64,000 bases of DNA from Aggregatilinea lenta (lineage in GTDB: Bacteria; Chloroflexota; Anaerolineae; Aggregatilineales; Aggregatilineaceae), in the NCBI RefSeq assembly GCF_003569045.1, contig NZ_BFCB01000002.1:930001-994000 (forward strand), written 5' to 3'. The notes under the pieces were generated by a model that did no database searches, was not told the DNA's origin, and saw only the letters and a list, made by a program, of their open reading frames with translations. Every line of letters begins with the position of its first letter. Position 1 is the stretch's first letter. The position numbers and the translations under genes are program-made. Positions 3,508-48,138 of this stretch are shown here, piece after piece.

Positions 3508-4182
3508 ATGGAGTTCGAAAAAATTGACATTACGCAGATCGTGGTGGCGCTCATTAGCCTGCTGGGGATGATCTGGGGCGCGTCGCAGCGGCCCACCGTC
3601 GTCGAAAGCACCACGACGACAGGCTCCGCGTCCGGCAAGGGACAAATGGTGCGCCCTGGAGCCAAAGACTCTACGCCGGGCCAACCTCCAAACGCGCGCC
3701 TGTTCATCAAGAACAACTGGCCCAACCTGCTGATCGGCGCGTGTAGCCTGATCTTCCTCGTCAATATCGGTTACACGGTGATGCGGCTCGCTGACGATGG
3801 CGAACCCGTAGTGACGATCACCTCGCCCAGCGACAACGGCGCGGCGGAATATATGCAGGCCGTGCGCGGCACATCCGACCACATCCCCGACGACAAAACG
3901 CTGTGGCTGGTCATCGTCCCGCATGCCAACAACCGCTACTATCCCGCCAACAAGCCCGCCGATATGCAGGTGTCCGGGGAATGGACCTCGTTGGCATATG
4001 TAGGACTACCCGAAACGACCGGTGAATCCTTCGACGTGATCGCTATACTGCTGGATGAACAGAGCAAAGCCGATTTCGAAGACTATATTGACTGGTGCAA
4101 GGCCAACAACAGTTGGTCCGGCTACGAGGCGCTGCCGGACGGGACGCAGGAATACGACCGGATCACCGTAACACGCGGGTAA
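3508..4182 (+). CDS. Two-TM membrane protein with external C-terminal domain
   Basis: A GAGGAG ribosome site precedes the ATG. Residues 9-26 and about 74-93 are hydrophobic, separated by a polar Ser/Thr/Lys-rich cytosolic loop. The C-terminal 125 residues contain an Ig-like start (VTITSPSDN) and motifs such as LWLVIVPHANNRYYP and SGEWTSLAYVG, a pattern I associate with extracytoplasmic beta-domains of uncharacterised bacterial membrane proteins, not with a named enzyme. The gene sits between two minus-strand cNMP-domain genes, a placement that hints at a link with them but does not prove it. Function unknown. Confidence 0.7.
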   Translation: MEFEKIDITQIVVALISLLGMIWGASQRPTVVESTTTTGSASGKGQMVRPGAKDSTPGQPPNARLFIKNNWPNLLIGACSLIFLVNIGYTVMRLADDGEPVVTITSPSDNGAAEYMQAVRGTSDHIPDDKTLWLVIVPHANNRYYPANKPADMQVSGEWTSLAYVGLPETTGESFDVIAILLDEQSKADFEDYIDWCKANNSWSGYEALPDGTQEYDRITVTRG

Positions 4183-33516: not shown

Positions 33517-34284
33517 GTGGATCTCGATGGCAAAGTGGCGCTGGTGACCGGCGCGGCGCACAGGGTCGGCAAGGCGATCGCGCTGGCGTTGGCGGGTGAA
33601 GGCGCGCATATCGTCGTGCATTACGGCGGCAGTGTAGACGCCGCCCATGCAACGGCGGACGAGATCGAGGCGCTGGGCGTCGAGGCGCTGCCGGTCCAGG
33701 CGGATTTGAGCCAGCCGGAGACCATCAACCAGTTATTCGAGGCGGTCGAAGCGCGCTTTGGGCGTCTTGACGTGCTGGTCAACAGCGCGTCGAACTTCAT
33801 GAAACAACCGCTGGATGTTGTCGGGCTGGACGACTGGCAGATCACGATGGCGATCAACCTGCAGGCCCCGTTCCTATGCACGCAGCGCGCCGCCCCCCTG
33901 ATGCGCGCCGTCGAACGCCCCGCCGACCAACCCGCGCTGATCGTCAACATCACCGATCTGGCGGGCCTGTACCCCTGGCGCAGCTTCGTGCAGCACGGCG
34001 TCAGCAAAGCGGGGCTGGTCCACCTGACCAAGGTGTCCGCCCGCGAGCTGGCCCCGGCGATCCGCGTGAACGCCATCGCGCCTGGCCCGGTGCTGCCGCC
34101 CGCCTACATGGACCCGGACGGCGAGGCGTGGCAGCGCGTCTATGCCGCCGTGCCGCTCCAGCGCGCAGGCAAGCCGGAGCACGTCGCGCAAACGGTCGTG
34201 TTTTTAGCCCAGAATGATTTCATCACCGGGGCAGTGATCCCGGTGGACGGAGGCGAAAGCCTGCTCGGCGCAGCCAACCACTGA
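33517..34284 (+). CDS. Pteridine reductase/FolM-like SDR with Tyr-to-His active-site change
   Basis: The 255-residue SDR has the NAD(P) motif TGAAHRVG and NSASN. The block IVNITDLAG has Asp (D147) where most SDRs have Ser, the hallmark of FolM and PTR1, which reduce dihydromonapterin, dihydrofolate or biopterin. The active-site Tyr of YxxxK is replaced: H160-G-V-S-K164. A downstream APGPVLPP loop also fits this group. The start is GTG 33517 with AGGGGG upstream; an ATG 45 bases earlier lacks a ribosome site. Its last 169 bases are repeated at 37552-37720. Location next to folE supports a pterin role. Confidence 0.82.
   Translation: MDLDGKVALVTGAAHRVGKAIALALAGEGAHIVVHYGGSVDAAHATADEIEALGVEALPVQADLSQPETINQLFEAVEARFGRLDVLVNSASNFMKQPLDVVGLDDWQITMAINLQAPFLCTQRAAPLMRAVERPADQPALIVNITDLAGLYPWRSFVQHGVSKAGLVHLTKVSARELAPAIRVNAIAPGPVLPPAYMDPDGEAWQRVYAAVPLQRAGKPEHVAQTVVFLAQNDFITGAVIPVDGGESLLGAANH
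34116..34284 (+). repeat. 169-bp direct repeat, copy 1 (3' end of reductase gene)
   Basis: Identical to 37552-37720 except one base (A at 34167, C at 37603), a synonymous Ala codon change. It ends exactly at the TGA stop codon. It forms the left boundary of the inserted island. Confidence 0.97.
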
Positions 34285-34301
34285 GGTGATGCAATAGAAC
34301 C

Positions 34302-35906
34302 TTATTTTTTGGGGAGCGCATTAATGGCGGTATCCAGAAATTTTGCAACATCCGGCGACAATCGGTGCGGATAAACAATAATAAACAACAAAAGGAGTTC
34401 TGGTTGATCCTGAAATAGTTTTGGAATCTTAGCCACGCTTACTTGTTCTGCTTGCTTCCGCAAAGCCGCCCAACTTTGAGGCATTTGAGGGCGTGAAAGT
34501 CTCAGTGAACCAGAATCTTCCGATTGCCATAAGCAGAATTGCCAGGGTGATTCTGGTTGAAATTCAGCATAGTCCACATGCGTGATACTGGGCCATAAAG
34601 CTCGCATCGTTTGTCGCCAATTACGACGAGCAAAAAGCTGTACTAAACTCTCCAAAGTATATGAGCGACCCTTATATCTCTCCCTAGATTCATATGGTCC
34701 AATGCCGTATATCTGGCTTACTACTTCTGGTAAATCGTGATATGGATTTGCTAACTCACTCACTTGCTCAATATTGTTTGCATCGCAGATTGCTCTGATA
34801 ATCTGCACAAGTAACTTGTCAGCTTCAGGTTTCCCAGGTGTTACGCGCAAGAACCACATAGTTGCCAAAAACTGTGGAACTGCGGCTTCGCCCCACAACA
34901 TCAATTTATCTCGATAGAAAAGTACAAACGACCTAAACCAAGTATCTTTATAGGCTTCAATGCCAGAAAAACGCAACCAAAGCGCATAGGCAGATACAAG
35001 CCCTACCAACCATGTCACTCGCCCTCGGTAAAATGGCGCATCAACTAACGGTTGCCCCTCCACTAAGTGTGTACGTGATTGGAGTTCATCACAGAGATCG
35101 ACAAATGCTTGATGAATAGCATTTTTCGAAATTAACACGGAGTCAGTCCAATACTTTTCGTTCAAGTTCCGTTTTTCAACTAACGTGGTTAAGCAAGCAA
35201 TATACACCATCCAACCTTCTATCAAAGCTACATGGTTTGCTTTGGCTGTATATGCAGATAGGGAATAAGCCGTCATAATTGCCGCGCTAGCGAGCGCTCG
35301 ACTACAGTCGAGATTGCTTAACGCATCATCGTCAAGTGGAAGTAGCGAGAATATGAACTCAGCTAGTTTTGCTTTGTTCAGATAGTCTGTTCCATCAGAG
35401 AGAAATAATTCTAATAGTGTTTTTTCCGATGCCAATTGAATAGGCCAAAAATTAGTATGAAGCGCCTGGAAACGGTTCAGCAGTTGACCTTTAACAACAA
35501 CCTCCAGTTTCGGAAGTTGTCTCCTTTCCCAATCGCGGTTCCTATGATCGATTTCTATCCTTACTTCTTCATCTAACTCGCCGTTCGTCACAAAAAAAAC
35601 TCGTCGAGGGCTATCAGGGTCAATAGAGGGGTGTACAATTGGTATCTCGACAAGCCGAACGATCTGGGATATATACCTCTCCCATGCTGCCGCTGTAATT
35701 TTTCCGTGAGACGCACTTTTCAGTTGAAAAGCACACGGAGTTCTTTCTGGGGATATCGCTAATACATCTTTGCCTTCCTCGGCTGGCCCATGTCTAGTAC
35801 GGTGTATAACCTGATACCCTTCCCCTGTCAGGAGTTGGCAGAAAGGAATTTCAAAAGAACGCTCATTTACTCTAGTCAACCAGTTTTCGATTACTCTCTC
35901 GAACAC
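34302..35906 (-). CDS. Restriction-endonuclease-like protein (PD-(D/E)xK, QxK type)
   Basis: The N-terminal 130 residues look like a PD-(D/E)xK nuclease of the Mrr/QxK kind: E19 (SFEIPF) in the first helix, D47 (EEGKDVLAI) and Q61-L-K63 (AFQLKS). The large C-terminal part (about 140-534) is helical and unlike known domains to me; it may recognise the target or sense infection. The start is GTG 35906 with GAGGA 7 bases upstream, inside the end of the partner gene (35-base overlap). Codon use is much AT-richer than the host. A role in defence against foreign DNA is inferred from the nuclease fold and mobile setting. Confidence 0.7.
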   Translation of the reverse strand: MFERVIENWLTRVNERSFEIPFCQLLTGEGYQVIHRTRHGPAEEGKDVLAISPERTPCAFQLKSASHGKITAAAWERYISQIVRLVEIPIVHPSIDPDSPRRVFFVTNGELDEEVRIEIDHRNRDWERRQLPKLEVVVKGQLLNRFQALHTNFWPIQLASEKTLLELFLSDGTDYLNKAKLAEFIFSLLPLDDDALSNLDCSRALASAAIMTAYSLSAYTAKANHVALIEGWMVYIACLTTLVEKRNLNEKYWTDSVLISKNAIHQAFVDLCDELQSRTHLVEGQPLVDAPFYRGRVTWLVGLVSAYALWLRFSGIEAYKDTWFRSFVLFYRDKLMLWGEAAVPQFLATMWFLRVTPGKPEADKLLVQIIRAICDANNIEQVSELANPYHDLPEVVSQIYGIGPYESRERYKGRSYTLESLVQLFARRNWRQTMRALWPSITHVDYAEFQPESPWQFCLWQSEDSGSLRLSRPQMPQSWAALRKQAEQVSVAKIPKLFQDQPELLLLFIIVYPHRLSPDVAKFLDTAINALPKK

Positions 35907-36459
35907 GCCAGTCCTCGCGTTTACGATCTATAATTTGGCTATGCTGTTTCTCAAATTCAGGATCTTGCTCCCATTTGGGAATATCGTCTTTGATAGCATC
36001 CCAAAGCATGGGGGACATTACAATTGTTGGATTAACAGGATTTCCACTTGAGTCAAAAGATAGGTCGATTTTTTCTAAGGCGTGTAGAAATGTATCAGGC
36101 CCAATTGGTTCAGATTCTACATTCCCATCAGTTACTGCATATTCACTAAGCTTTTTAAATGTTGAGCGACTTACTTTCCCAGCTATTTCACGAGCCACTT
36201 GATCTAATTTTTGGGCAATTTCGGCGGGAGTTAAAAAAGGAATTTCATCGTTTTGAAGAGTGAAATTAGCTTCAATGGCTTCATAGCCTGATTCGCTTAC
36301 AGATCCGTCAATCCTTTCAATACGCCATTTTCCCCCTTCGTGATGTCGAAAAGATGGTATATTGCCTACAAAACCGGCATAGTGATATTGTTTTCGAATG
36401 AGATATTCATTCCAGAAGTCCATTAATTTGTTTTTTTGAATGGGGAAATCTGGAAGCAT
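35872..36459 (-). CDS. Uncharacterised partner of the QxK nuclease
   Basis: The 195-residue acidic protein has no recognised motif. It contains DFWNEYLIRKQYHYAGF near the start, a helical part around AEIAQKLDQVAREIAGKVS and a Lys/Arg/Glu-rich end. Its last 35 bases overlap the nuclease start, so expression is coupled. It could be an antitoxin-like inhibitor, a DNA-recognition subunit or a sensor. ATG 36459 is selected because AGGTG lies 6 bases upstream. An IS ends 31 bases before this start, so the native promoter is displaced about 1 kb. Confidence 0.55.
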   Translation of the reverse strand: MLPDFPIQKNKLMDFWNEYLIRKQYHYAGFVGNIPSFRHHEGGKWRIERIDGSVSESGYEAIEANFTLQNDEIPFLTPAEIAQKLDQVAREIAGKVSRSTFKKLSEYAVTDGNVESEPIGPDTFLHALEKIDLSFDSSGNPVNPTIVMSPMLWDAIKDDIPKWEQDPEFEKQHSQIIDRKREDWRVRESNRKLVD

Positions 36460-36490
36460 TTCTACACCTATTGCATAACAGATATAGCTA

Positions 36491-37483
36491 ACCCGATGTA
36501 CAAGTTTAATCGGACAGAAGGGCAGCGAACTGGAGCGGCGACGCCAAGCCAGCCTGCTGAGCCAGGAAAACCGCAAACGTATGACTGAGCAGCTTGCGCA
36601 ACCAGCGCGAACACAAATGCCAGGGATCACGGGCCCAGACACGCTTGCCTTGAAAGCGCTCGACCAATTGGCCGATGACGGTTTCGACACGGCGGCGGGT
36701 CTGGGTCAGCCAGCGCGGCCAGGGACGATGGTCACGCTTGACCGATGTTTTGCGCGGGGCGAGCAGGCAAGCGCCTTGCCGGACCAGATCGTCACGCAGC
36801 ATCGGGCTCCAGTAGTTGGTATCCCCCAGGACCCAGCCGTGGGCGTTGGCGAGCAGGTCTTCAGCCGCCCAGCGGTCATGCACATCGGCAGGAAAGACGG
36901 CCAGTCCCACAATCACGCCGGGCCAGCAGATGCGGACATGCACCCGCATCCCGAAGAAACGCTGCTTGGCCACATCGTCGTAGCCCCATGCCGACCACTC
37001 GCGCAGTCGTCGGCAGCGGTACGCGCGCCCAAAACGGCACACCGGCAGGGGAAAGCTGTCCACCACCGACAGCGCCGGGTCAAATGCCACCTGCGTCAGC
37101 AGATGCTGCCACAGTCGCTCTTTGACCCGCCACAGATTCGCCGCTTGACGCACAAATGTGACCCGGTCTACCTGCCGCAGCTTTGGAAACCACTCACTAT
37201 AGTGGCGACAGAAATGCTGATAGATCGCGTGGTCCGTATCGATGCTCAGGTATTCGCCGACGATTTCCATCGTCAGCACTTCGCTGTCGGCCAGGATCGG
37301 CTGCGGTCCGCGCTGTCGCACGCGCGGCTGCGTCTTGAGCCAGTCGTCAATGTAGCAGAAGATCGTGACCATAAACGTGATATGATCCATCTTGGAGCTC
37401 CTTGGTCGGATTTTTGGTGTCAGCTACCTCAGATCCTACAAGCAGCTCCTTTTTTTGTCAGTCCATAAACCTGTACATCGGGT
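36491..37483 (-). mobile_element. IS982-family insertion sequence, complete
   Basis: A 993-bp element with 18-bp inverted ends (ACCCGATGTACARGTTTA, one mismatch) at 36491-36508 and 37466-37483. It is flanked by TAGCTA on both sides (36485-36490 and 37484-37489), a 6-bp target duplication. The ACCC ends and transposase type fit IS982. Intact ends, target duplication and ORF suggest a recent insertion. Confidence 0.92.
36506..37390 (-). CDS. IS982-family transposase
   Basis: The 294-residue DDE transposase has VVDSFPLPVC (first Asp), VLGDTNYWS (second Asp) and RRRVETVIGQL (Glu), in the IS982 arrangement. Its stop codon lies within the left inverted end. AAGGAG is 9 bases before ATG 37390. It is intact, so the element may still move. 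Base composition is GC-rich, unlike the AT-rich island it sits in, which shows that it entered the island separately. Confidence 0.93.
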   Translation of the reverse strand: MDHITFMVTIFCYIDDWLKTQPRVRQRGPQPILADSEVLTMEIVGEYLSIDTDHAIYQHFCRHYSEWFPKLRQVDRVTFVRQAANLWRVKERLWQHLLTQVAFDPALSVVDSFPLPVCRFGRAYRCRRLREWSAWGYDDVAKQRFFGMRVHVRICWPGVIVGLAVFPADVHDRWAAEDLLANAHGWVLGDTNYWSPMLRDDLVRQGACLLAPRKTSVKRDHRPWPRWLTQTRRRVETVIGQLVERFQGKRVWARDPWHLCSRWLRKLLSHTFAVFLAQQAGLASPLQFAALLSD

Positions 37484-37551
37484 TAGCTAATAAATAAGCC
37501 CATGAATACTCTATCATAAGGTGCTTATAAACGATAGTATGCAGTGCGATT

Positions 37552-37720
37552 GGACGGCGAGGCGTGGCAGCGCGTCTATGCCGCCGTGCCGCTCCAGCGC
37601 GCCGGCAAGCCGGAGCACGTCGCGCAAACGGTCGTGTTTTTAGCCCAGAATGATTTCATCACCGGGGCAGTGATCCCGGTGGACGGAGGCGAAAGCCTGC
37701 TCGGCGCAGCCAACCACTGA
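37552..37720 (+). repeat. 169-bp direct repeat, copy 2 (reductase 3' end remnant)
   Basis: A promoterless fragment encoding the last 55 residues of the reductase, with the stop codon at 37718-37720. It is followed by the DNA that leads to the heliorhodopsin gene 60 bases later, so this junction is probably the original chromosomal order. Confidence 0.95.
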
Positions 37721-37780: not shown

Positions 37781-38557
37781 ATGGAAACCAACGCCGATCG
37801 TTCGACGTTTCGTTCGCTGCGCCGCTTCAACGTGGCGATGGGGGTGCTGCACCTGATTCAAGGCGTGCTGATGCTGGCGCTCAGCAACGATTTCAGCGTG
37901 CCGATCAGCACCTATTTTTTGAAGTTCCAGGAGGGAGACGGGCTGGTCACGAACCCAAAGATTTTGTTCGATCTGCCGCTGGGACCGTTCATCGCGTCGT
38001 TCCTGTTCATGTCCGCGCTGGCGCATTTCGCCGTCTCGATGCCGGGCATTTACGAGTGGTACGTGCATAATCTACAGCGGGGCATCAACAAAGCCCGCTG
38101 GATCGAGTACTCGTTCAGCGCCTCGGTGATGATCGTCGCCATCGCAGCCCTGTTCGGCCTGTACGACATCGCGGCCCTGCTGCTGATCTTCGCCCTCAAC
38201 GCCGCCATGATCCTGTTCGGCTGGATGATGGAGCTGCACAACCAGACGACCGAAAAAGTCAACTGGACCGCGTTCATCTTCGGCTGCATCGTCGGGATCG
38301 TGCCGTGGATCGCGGTGGGCATTTACTTCGTCGGGTCGGTGAGCAGCGGCGAGCAGGTGCCGGGCTTCGTCTATGCGATTTATGTATCGCTGTTCTTGTT
38401 CTTTAACGTGTTTGCCGTCAATCAGGTGCTGCAATATGCAAAGGTCGGGCGCTGGCGCGATTACGTGTACGGCGAGCGCGCCTACATCGTGCTCAGCCTG
38501 GTCGCCAAGTCGCTGCTGGCGTGGCAGGTCTTTTTCGGCACGCTGCAGCCATCCTAG
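37781..38557 (+). CDS. Heliorhodopsin
   Basis: The 258-residue seven-TM protein carries the heliorhodopsin signatures. The retinal Schiff-base Lys is K243 in SLVAKSLLAWQ, the counterion is E109 in RWIEYSFSASVM, and H24 and H82 match the two conserved pocket histidines. YGERAYIVLSLVAK and NVFAVNQ are also typical. The N-terminus should face the cytosol, opposite to other rhodopsins. Heliorhodopsins are light sensors of still debated function and do not pump ions in known cases. GGAG lies 8 bases upstream of the ATG. No retinal-synthesis gene is in the window. It stands between the pterin reductase remnant and an epimerase gene, inside a folate cluster. Confidence 0.96.
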   Translation: METNADRSTFRSLRRFNVAMGVLHLIQGVLMLALSNDFSVPISTYFLKFQEGDGLVTNPKILFDLPLGPFIASFLFMSALAHFAVSMPGIYEWYVHNLQRGINKARWIEYSFSASVMIVAIAALFGLYDIAALLLIFALNAAMILFGWMMELHNQTTEKVNWTAFIFGCIVGIVPWIAVGIYFVGSVSSGEQVPGFVYAIYVSLFLFFNVFAVNQVLQYAKVGRWRDYVYGERAYIVLSLVAKSLLAWQVFFGTLQPS

Positions 38558-46024: not shown

Positions 46025-48040
46025 CTACTTGTCGCAATAATCCTGAACGGCTTTGATTATTCCACGAGTGGGCTCTTGGAAATTTGGATAAAGTTTCCCA
46101 ATTTGTTCTTCAAGATCAAGGTTGCAGTCGAGAATCTCACGCCAGGCATCAGCTAGGGCGTGATAATCAGGATCGGGATGTTGCTTGTAATGCGTCAGTA
46201 GCTGCCTGACCCTTCCCTTTTTTTCTTCATCTGATTCACGAAGCGCTTGCACCAGCAAACTCGCCACAACATTTAAATCTACAAAGGTATGGACAGCACT
46301 ATCGAGCGTGTCGGCTTCACCAAGATCACCATAAAGTACACTTAGCATTGACAGTCGCTGGTGGATATAGACACTTATTGTTCCCTTAGCATCTTTTTCT
46401 TGCGCTGTAACAGGCTGAATCTCTAACACCGTTTTATAAGTTCTAAAGGCCTTTTGAGGTTGCCCAAAGGCTTCATATGCCTGCCCCAAGGTCGCTAATA
46501 CAGCAAAGCGACCAATGTCACTTTGGTATTGTTCTTGAAAGTCGATAGAAACTGCCCTTTCAAGGTAGATGATGCATTCTTTCTCACCGCGCGAGAGCAA
46601 TAACTCGCCTAATTGATAAACCAACTGCTGACTAAGTGGATTAGCCTGCACTGCATGACGAACGACCTCGATTGCTTCGTCTATACGTCCCAAAGTCTTT
46701 AAATAGTCCCCATAATTGGCCCATACTTTGATTTCGTGTGGTAGTTTCTCGACACCTGCATCTAGCTCATTAATGATTTGCTGCTCCAGGTCTGGCGTAT
46801 GAGGCAACTCTTGTAGCGCATCAGTGTAGAACACCACGGGACGCCAATTGCGCCAGTAACCTTCAGGGTATATTTGCTTCCAGCCTGCCATGAATTCACA
46901 CGCTTCTTCGACCGAACGAGAAATAGTCATGGCACGAGTCAGGGTCGCAGCCAAGTCCCAATCACTGGGATATCGGCCATGCCCCTTATGGGCAATTTCG
47001 TAGGCTAGAACATATTCATTTTGCCTAAAAGCTTGCATACAAGAGTTAAAGAAATTATTACGGGAGCCTGGTAAATCTCGTTCTACGATCAGTGCAAGCG
47101 CTTTTCTGGCCGATACCGAGTCTCCGGTCTCATGGAAACGATCAGCCAAGCGATGCGCTTGTTCCACTGAGGTAACTTGAATAACGCCAGACAGTTCTTT
47201 AAAATCCGATTCAACAGTTAGCCAGTGGTATTGGGCTAGCAGGGTTTCAACCCCAGCAATACGTTCCTCAATTTGCCCAGCCCGGCCTTCTAGCTGATTG
47301 ATAACTGTATCTTTTGACGTTTGAAAGCTTGTCAACGAACGTTCAACTCGTGCTTGGGTATCCTCCATCAACTTTTGCAGTTCGTCTTCCAGTTTTTCCA
47401 CCTGCTCATAAACATAAGCGCGTAAAATATTCTGATTATCTTCGGAACCGTCTTTAATTTGGATTCTTAATGAGTCACGTAAAGAAGTGATTTCTTGATC
47501 GATCGATCCTAGCCGTTGCAATCCTAACACACCAGCCACACCCAAGACAATCGCGCCCAACAAACCCAGTAGAATGTCTTGCAACGCCGAATCCGGTTTG
47601 GATTGCATTGTTTCAAGTGTATCCAATGCAGCTTGATTTTTTGCGTTGTAGTCCCTAAAAGTGCTGACCAGTTCTTCTTGATCGAGTTGCACTGTCCCTG
47701 TGATATTCTGTGAGGCGCTTGCAATCAATGCATCCGTAATTTCCTTGTTACTTTTTCGCAGTTCGTCGATGATATCTTCACCTTTGCCAGGAATAATCCC
47801 GAAACGGAAGCCAAGAACGATGCAGATAACCGTAACGACAACTATGAACCCACCGAGGAGCATGTTACGCTGTGTAGTTCTTCGATAATCTTGGATTGCT
47901 TCATCAATTTGATTCTTTATGATTTGCTCATGTATTACGGCCTTTTCTGGTTCGTTATTGATTGAGTTAGGCGAAGGGCCTATAGATTCAGGAAACTTTA
48001 CAACAGTCTCAGTCACTTGAGTCTTCCTTCCCAAAAGCAT
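46025..48040 (-). CDS. Membrane protein with coiled coil and TPR-like repeats, AT-rich
   Basis: The 671-residue protein has two TM segments (about 60-80 and 155-175), a long coiled coil (about 190-275, rich in E/L/Q/K) and a C-terminal region of TPR-like helix pairs (about 290-600; for example WANYGDYLKTLGRIDEAIEV and YQLGELLLSRGEKECIIYLE). Both termini appear cytosolic. GTG 48082 is rejected since a TATAAT -10 overlaps it; ATG 48040 is used, although no clear ribosome site is present. Base composition is far more AT-rich than neighbours, which suggests transfer. It could be a scaffold or defence-associated sensor; nothing proves this. Confidence 0.72.
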   Translation of the reverse strand: MLLGRKTQVTETVVKFPESIGPSPNSINNEPEKAVIHEQIIKNQIDEAIQDYRRTTQRNMLLGGFIVVVTVICIVLGFRFGIIPGKGEDIIDELRKSNKEITDALIASASQNITGTVQLDQEELVSTFRDYNAKNQAALDTLETMQSKPDSALQDILLGLLGAIVLGVAGVLGLQRLGSIDQEITSLRDSLRIQIKDGSEDNQNILRAYVYEQVEKLEDELQKLMEDTQARVERSLTSFQTSKDTVINQLEGRAGQIEERIAGVETLLAQYHWLTVESDFKELSGVIQVTSVEQAHRLADRFHETGDSVSARKALALIVERDLPGSRNNFFNSCMQAFRQNEYVLAYEIAHKGHGRYPSDWDLAATLTRAMTISRSVEEACEFMAGWKQIYPEGYWRNWRPVVFYTDALQELPHTPDLEQQIINELDAGVEKLPHEIKVWANYGDYLKTLGRIDEAIEVVRHAVQANPLSQQLVYQLGELLLSRGEKECIIYLERAVSIDFQEQYQSDIGRFAVLATLGQAYEAFGQPQKAFRTYKTVLEIQPVTAQEKDAKGTISVYIHQRLSMLSVLYGDLGEADTLDSAVHTFVDLNVVASLLVQALRESDEEKKGRVRQLLTHYKQHPDPDYHALADAWREILDCNLDLEEQIGKLYPNFQEPTRGIIKAVQDYCDK

Positions 48041-48071
48041 AAAATAATAATGGTTTTTAATCTTTAGTAGT

Positions 48072-48077
48072 ATTATA
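48072..48077 (-). promoter_or_regulatory. -10 hexamer of the 46025-48040 gene
   Basis: TATAAT on the minus strand, 32 bases before ATG 48040; the -35 (TTTCTT) is weak. Confidence 0.45.
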
Positions 48078-48138
48078 ACCACTGCAAGTAATATAAGAAA
48101 AATATATATCCACTGACAAAATGTGTCAATAAGAAATC

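Follow-up and report, generated by a model that had tools for sequence, protein, structure and literature searches.

The DNA stretch analysed here, hereafter the window (64,000 nucleotides of the Aggregatilinea lenta contig NZ_BFCB01000002.1, positions 930,001 to 994,000), contains a two-gene module in which a predicted PD-(D/E)xK nuclease is coupled to a partner protein with a probable truncated HK97 (capsid- or encapsulin-like) fold. That this module exists, is conserved and mobile, and has coupled genes is hardly open to doubt; its interpretation as a mobile immunity-type module, in which the capsid-fold partner would scaffold or restrain the Mrr-type nuclease, is a reading that we favor to a modest degree. 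Two-gene nuclease modules are a known kind of defence system. The genes and their overlap are located as follows:

35872-36459, minus strand: partner gene (195 aa, ATG start)
34302-35906, minus strand: nuclease gene (534 aa, GTG start)
35872-35906, minus strand: overlap of the nuclease and partner genes (35 nt)

The partner gene comes first and the nuclease gene second, with the GTG start of the latter positioned 35 bases inside the 3' end of the former. Read mechanically, the partner open reading frame extends upstream to a GTG at 36690 within an IS982-like element; since most of the homologous partners begin with M(L/I)PDFP at the position equivalent to the ATG at 36459, this ATG was assigned as the start. 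The GC content at 34-37 kb amounts to 0.44-0.51 versus approximately 0.64 for the whole window. An earlier note on this DNA had described a 534-residue and a 195-residue gene with the GTG start lying 35 bases inside the partner, both AT-rich, and the reading frames and GC values obtained here agree with that description.

A search of 200 relatives yielded one strong homologue, and nuclease carriers amounted to 5 of the 396 genomes of the class; scanning a single genome for each species gave sixteen loci, and one is situated on a mobilizable Rhodococcus plasmid (L005), the sole match in searches of IMG/VR, phage and plasmid records (no match to the module was obtained in IMG/VR and the phage records). 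After removal of duplicates, the set comprised 19 distinct loci, i.e. the window and 18 further ones. Both genes are present in constant order in all 19, which answers the earlier note's own reservation that homologues of the two might never occur together, and their overlap measures exactly 35 nt in 18 loci and 32 nt in the remaining one; therefore, the arrangement is not a product of chance. Indeed, the partner and nuclease profiles retrieved the identical five carriers among the 396 class genomes and no others, so that the partner was never found alone. According to the record titles, in which the labels of metagenome-assembled genomes may be wrong, the loci are spread over about ten phyla, with placements in Chloroflexota, Dadabacteria, Acidobacteria, Kiritimatiellae, Gammaproteobacteria, Myxococcota, Latescibacterota, Actinomycetota and a Nanoarchaeota-labelled assembly; the distribution is patchy. 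Both genes are under purifying selection (dN/dS of approximately 0.27 for the nuclease as well as for the partner in the closest pair of loci).

Two loci combine an intact partner with an interrupted nuclease reading frame (L026:1585-3099 and L027:6001-7594), which may reflect decay, a costly nuclease or an assembly error in these metagenome-assembled genomes. Such loci would also fit a toxin-antitoxin addiction module, in which the partner acts as antitoxin to a toxic nuclease, the element is stabilised and defence is at most a by-product. An antitoxin-first order with overlapping genes is typical of type II toxin-antitoxin modules; the gene order and overlap of the present module are compatible with it, as is its location on mobile DNA. 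However, the 534-residue nuclease and the structured 195-residue partner are far above the usual sizes, no antitoxin DNA-binding domain was recognised in the partner, and the two broken frames could be assembly errors; an addiction module is accordingly regarded as unlikely.

The module and an IS982-like element together form an island that is inserted between a short-chain dehydrogenase (SDR) gene and a heliorhodopsin gene and is bounded by long direct repeats:

34116-34284, plus strand: left copy of the 169-bp direct repeat (terminal part of the SDR gene with its stop codon)
34285-37551, no strand assigned: inserted island with the module and the IS982-like element (3.3 kb)
36485-37489, minus strand: IS982-like insertion sequence (24-nt terminal inverted repeats; TAGCTA on both sides)
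36506-37390, minus strand: DDE transposase of the IS982-like element
37552-37720, plus strand: right copy of the 169-bp direct repeat (1 mismatch; adjoins the heliorhodopsin gene)
37781-38557, plus strand: heliorhodopsin gene (Pfam E 1.8e-104)

The repeat corresponds exactly to the last 169 bp of the SDR gene. Four relatives of the same family (L032, L033, L034 and L039) exhibit the empty site, the SDR gene being followed directly by the heliorhodopsin gene; from this adjacency in the relatives and the repeat-bounded arrangement in the window, a recent insertion at the SDR stop codon was deduced. The module is thus mobile, as seen from the insertion with its empty site, the mobilizable plasmid and the patchy distribution, and the proposal of the earlier note that the genes travel in an island has found a concrete form. 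No integrase was found in the island, and target-site duplications or attachment sites do not usually measure 169 bp. Long flanking duplications at the module borders were absent from the other homologous loci with the exception of a Dehalococcoidia assembly (L019). There, the module fills one slot of an array in which the 3' end of another gene recurs in five diverged copies (L019:4075-12309, copies at 4117, 6639, 8887, 10690 and 12195) with different cargo after each copy; the arrangement looks like a cassette array that grew by successive insertions at the end of a gene. The repeated gene end encodes the terminus of a protein ending in ALQYRKREG(D/E/N), comM-like by eye. The window contains a second AT-rich gene (46025-48082, minus strand, GC approximately 0.44), the 685-residue product of which has a predicted membrane segment, a coiled coil and TPR-like repeats (by eye).

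The nuclease is composed of two parts, for which the following positions were assigned:

35451-35906, minus strand: PD-(D/E)xK nuclease domain (residues ~1-152; invariant columns and structural matches)
35862-35864, minus strand: E15 codon (invariant column)
35766-35768, minus strand: D47 codon (invariant column)
35718-35726, minus strand: Q61-x-K63 codons (invariant columns)
34305-35450, minus strand: helical C-domain (residues 153-534; without a named family)

In 17 aligned homologues, the residues E15, R16, E43, K46, D47, Q61 and K63 are invariant. The earlier note had predicted a PD-(D/E)xK-like N-domain with E19, D47 and Q61-x-K63 as catalytic residues; D47, Q61 and K63 are confirmed by this conservation, whereas position 19 is occupied by E, D or Q, and the first catalytic acid is consequently assigned to E15. 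The AlphaFold2 model (pLDDT 87, pTM 0.89) was searched for similarity to known structures, a search that could equally have placed the N-domain in a non-nuclease fold: the top match in Foldseek was MspJI (probability 1.00), and a second structure aligner returned FokI (Z 11.1), AF1548 (10.4), MspJI (9.7), LlaBIII (9.1) and the Avs4 nuclease (8.8). These matches are centred on residues 1-152, the full span of the FokI match, and the FokI and MspJI superpositions gave an rmsd of 3.2-3.4 over 131-140 residues; Pfam Mrr_cat matched 4 of the 17 nuclease members. According to the model, the N-domain is of the PD-(D/E)xK fold and Mrr-type, and DNA cutting is predicted. The C-domain, already noted as large, helical and unfamiliar, is all-helical in the model with a weak likeness to alpha-alpha toroids (LanCL1) and to 14-3-3/TPR-like repeats; as helical proteins may attain such scores through their common arrangement, it was left unnamed.

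The partner, which had been described as being of unknown type, matched no family at a meaningful level in the libraries searched, including the capsid families of PHROGs, and searches of PDB sequences with profiles gave chance matches only. ABC-3C CTD6 was considered and dropped, the match being restricted to a single member (E 0.0026). The structure model is of moderate confidence (pLDDT 77, pTM 0.50). HK97-fold proteins of different origin fill its first four places in the structural search, namely an encapsulin (Z 7.0), the T7 capsid (6.2), the Pyrococcus furiosus virus-like particle (5.1) and P22 (4.7), while all remaining matches to this model of pTM 0.50 have Z <= 4.0; in the set of predicted viral structures, a P22 coat protein ranks first (probability 0.97). 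The model features an N-terminal helix, an E-loop-like hairpin, a long spine helix and the start of the A-domain, most of which is missing; the 195 residues of the partner would not suffice for a complete HK97 protein. Accordingly, the feature predicted is:

Partner residues ~5-166: truncated HK97 fold, followed by a conserved charged C-terminal helix (RKREEW..RESNRKLVD)

In profile-profile comparisons of the partner homologues (n = 19), the alignment with the PF05065 capsids fell on the A-domain motif, and none of 100 column shuffles scored as well; PF25209 was aligned in the E-loop and spine register, as expected for capsids, with 8 of 100 shuffles as good. For encapsulin and P22, 19 and 41 of 100 column shuffles, respectively, reached the same level, and each capsid comparison was non-significant singly (E 0.14-0.36). 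Because the encapsulin and P22 profile scores are no better than shuffles, sequence alone gives no proof of the HK97 fold; taken with the structural matches, the model nevertheless makes a truncated HK97 fold of the partner quite probable.

The closest structural match being an encapsulin, the partner might self-assemble into a shell or facet in which the nuclease is kept as cargo away from host DNA, irrespective of the function that such a compartment finally serves. Family 4 encapsulins offer a precedent, as they are truncated HK97 proteins encoded in two-gene operons with an enzyme (PMC8346489). In contrast to the partner, which lacks most of the A-domain, Family 4 proteins keep only this domain, and their operons have the enzyme gene first, whereas it is second in the module. 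In addition, the encapsulin profile comparison does not exceed the shuffles, and the encapsulin survey (PMC8346489) makes no mention of nucleases or of restriction cargo. A compartment of this kind therefore appears improbable.

In the window, the module is flanked by housekeeping genes (folE, a dehydrogenase and heliorhodopsin) with no defence genes among them. Defence-type genes are frequent neighbours at the homologous loci: L025 has DNA methylases together with an MvaI/BcnI restriction enzyme, L019 a D12 methylase, L028 a type III-like methylase and L017 a RapA/SNF2 helicase; PIN proteins occur as well, and the Rhodococcus plasmid contributes an ATP-dependent endonuclease plus a helicase with matches to HamB and further SF2 helicases. 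By association with these defence-type neighbours, defence is the likely role of the module. Adjoining it on the plasmid, a 281-aa gene overlaps the large HamB-matching helicase (L005:6704-10372), possibly a Hachiman-like pair.

The methylases in the neighbourhood of the module (L019, L025 and L028), together with the likeness of the N-domain to Mrr_cat and to MspJI and AspBHI, are also consistent with a restriction-type enzyme (Mrr/Type IV-like or a Type II variant) that directly cuts modified or unmodified foreign DNA, the partner serving as recognition or assembly subunit; Mrr_cat-, MspJI- and AspBHI-type enzymes cut modified DNA. However, no methylase is constantly linked to the module (DNA methyltransferases are absent from the window island and present near the module in some homologous loci only), a DNA-recognition domain was identified in neither protein, and a capsid-like fold is not known to act as specificity subunit. 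On these grounds, direct restriction is considered quite improbable.

We return to the favored reading of an immunity-type module with a scaffolding or restraining partner. Because the nuclease is read from inside the end of the partner gene, its translation is probably coupled to that of the partner. Both proteins would associate at a fixed ratio into one complex, where the capsid-fold partner would scaffold or restrain the nuclease; the conserved charged C-terminal helix of the partner, which is partly encoded inside the overlap, may form the contact to the nuclease. Upon entry of a phage or plasmid, the nuclease would be released or activated and the DNA cut, the trigger perhaps being a phage structural protein. 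In a more specific version, which we put forward tentatively and hold to be doubtful, the partner would be a domesticated truncated capsid protein acting as sensor or restraint of the nuclease, and mimicry of, or co-assembly with, the capsid protein of an infecting phage would unleash the nuclease on DNA, so that immunity would rest on the assembly of capsids itself. Should the fold and the defence role be confirmed, the module would offer a direct test of the bacterial reuse of capsid proteins as phage sensors.

The pair is present in none of the libraries searched (single-sequence searches of Pfam, PADLOC, NCBIfam and PHROGs with the window proteins gave nothing notable), in line with the earlier view, in which it was not recognised as a named system. 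The fold of the nuclease, the pairing and the mobility had been recognised correctly in that view, the catalytic role of E19 has been replaced, and the HK97-like partner, the 169-bp repeat and the domain shared with Olokun had been overlooked. The PADLOC model of Olokun OloB matched 3 of the 17 nuclease members, mainly in the N-domain (the window nuclease itself gave no match), and the shared N-terminal domain occupies the same position (in L009, residues 8-150 aligned to profile positions 7-155, E 1.9e-9). Both systems consist of two genes, and OloB (556 positions) is similar in length to the nuclease (534 aa). In contrast, OloA, the defining partner of Olokun, is a different protein of 596 positions compared with the 195 residues of the partner, and its model matched none of the 19 partner members; as OloA is not at the locus, membership in Olokun was rejected. 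Lamassu LmuA likewise carries a PD-(D/E)xK N-domain, and its PADLOC model matched a single nuclease member weakly (E 0.0039); the SMC-like LmuB and LmuC were not recognised at the module loci, and Lamassu was dropped on account of this one marginal match. With Mrr-type restriction endonucleases (PF04471), the nuclease shares the PD-(D/E)xK catalytic domain with D...QxK, but it differs from them by its distinct large helical C-domain and the obligatory overlapping partner gene. The partner, in turn, resembles encapsulins and HK97 capsids (Family 1, Family 4, P22 coat) in its predicted fold and the encapsulins also in its operon with an enzyme, whereas its length of 195 aa, its own charged C-terminal helix and the pairing with a nuclease set it apart. 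A literature search, its scope excluding most subscription journals, found no capsid-fold protein combined with a nuclease in defence; if fold and defence are confirmed, the present module would be, as far as found, the first case of immunity in which a protein of capsid fold is joined to a nuclease.
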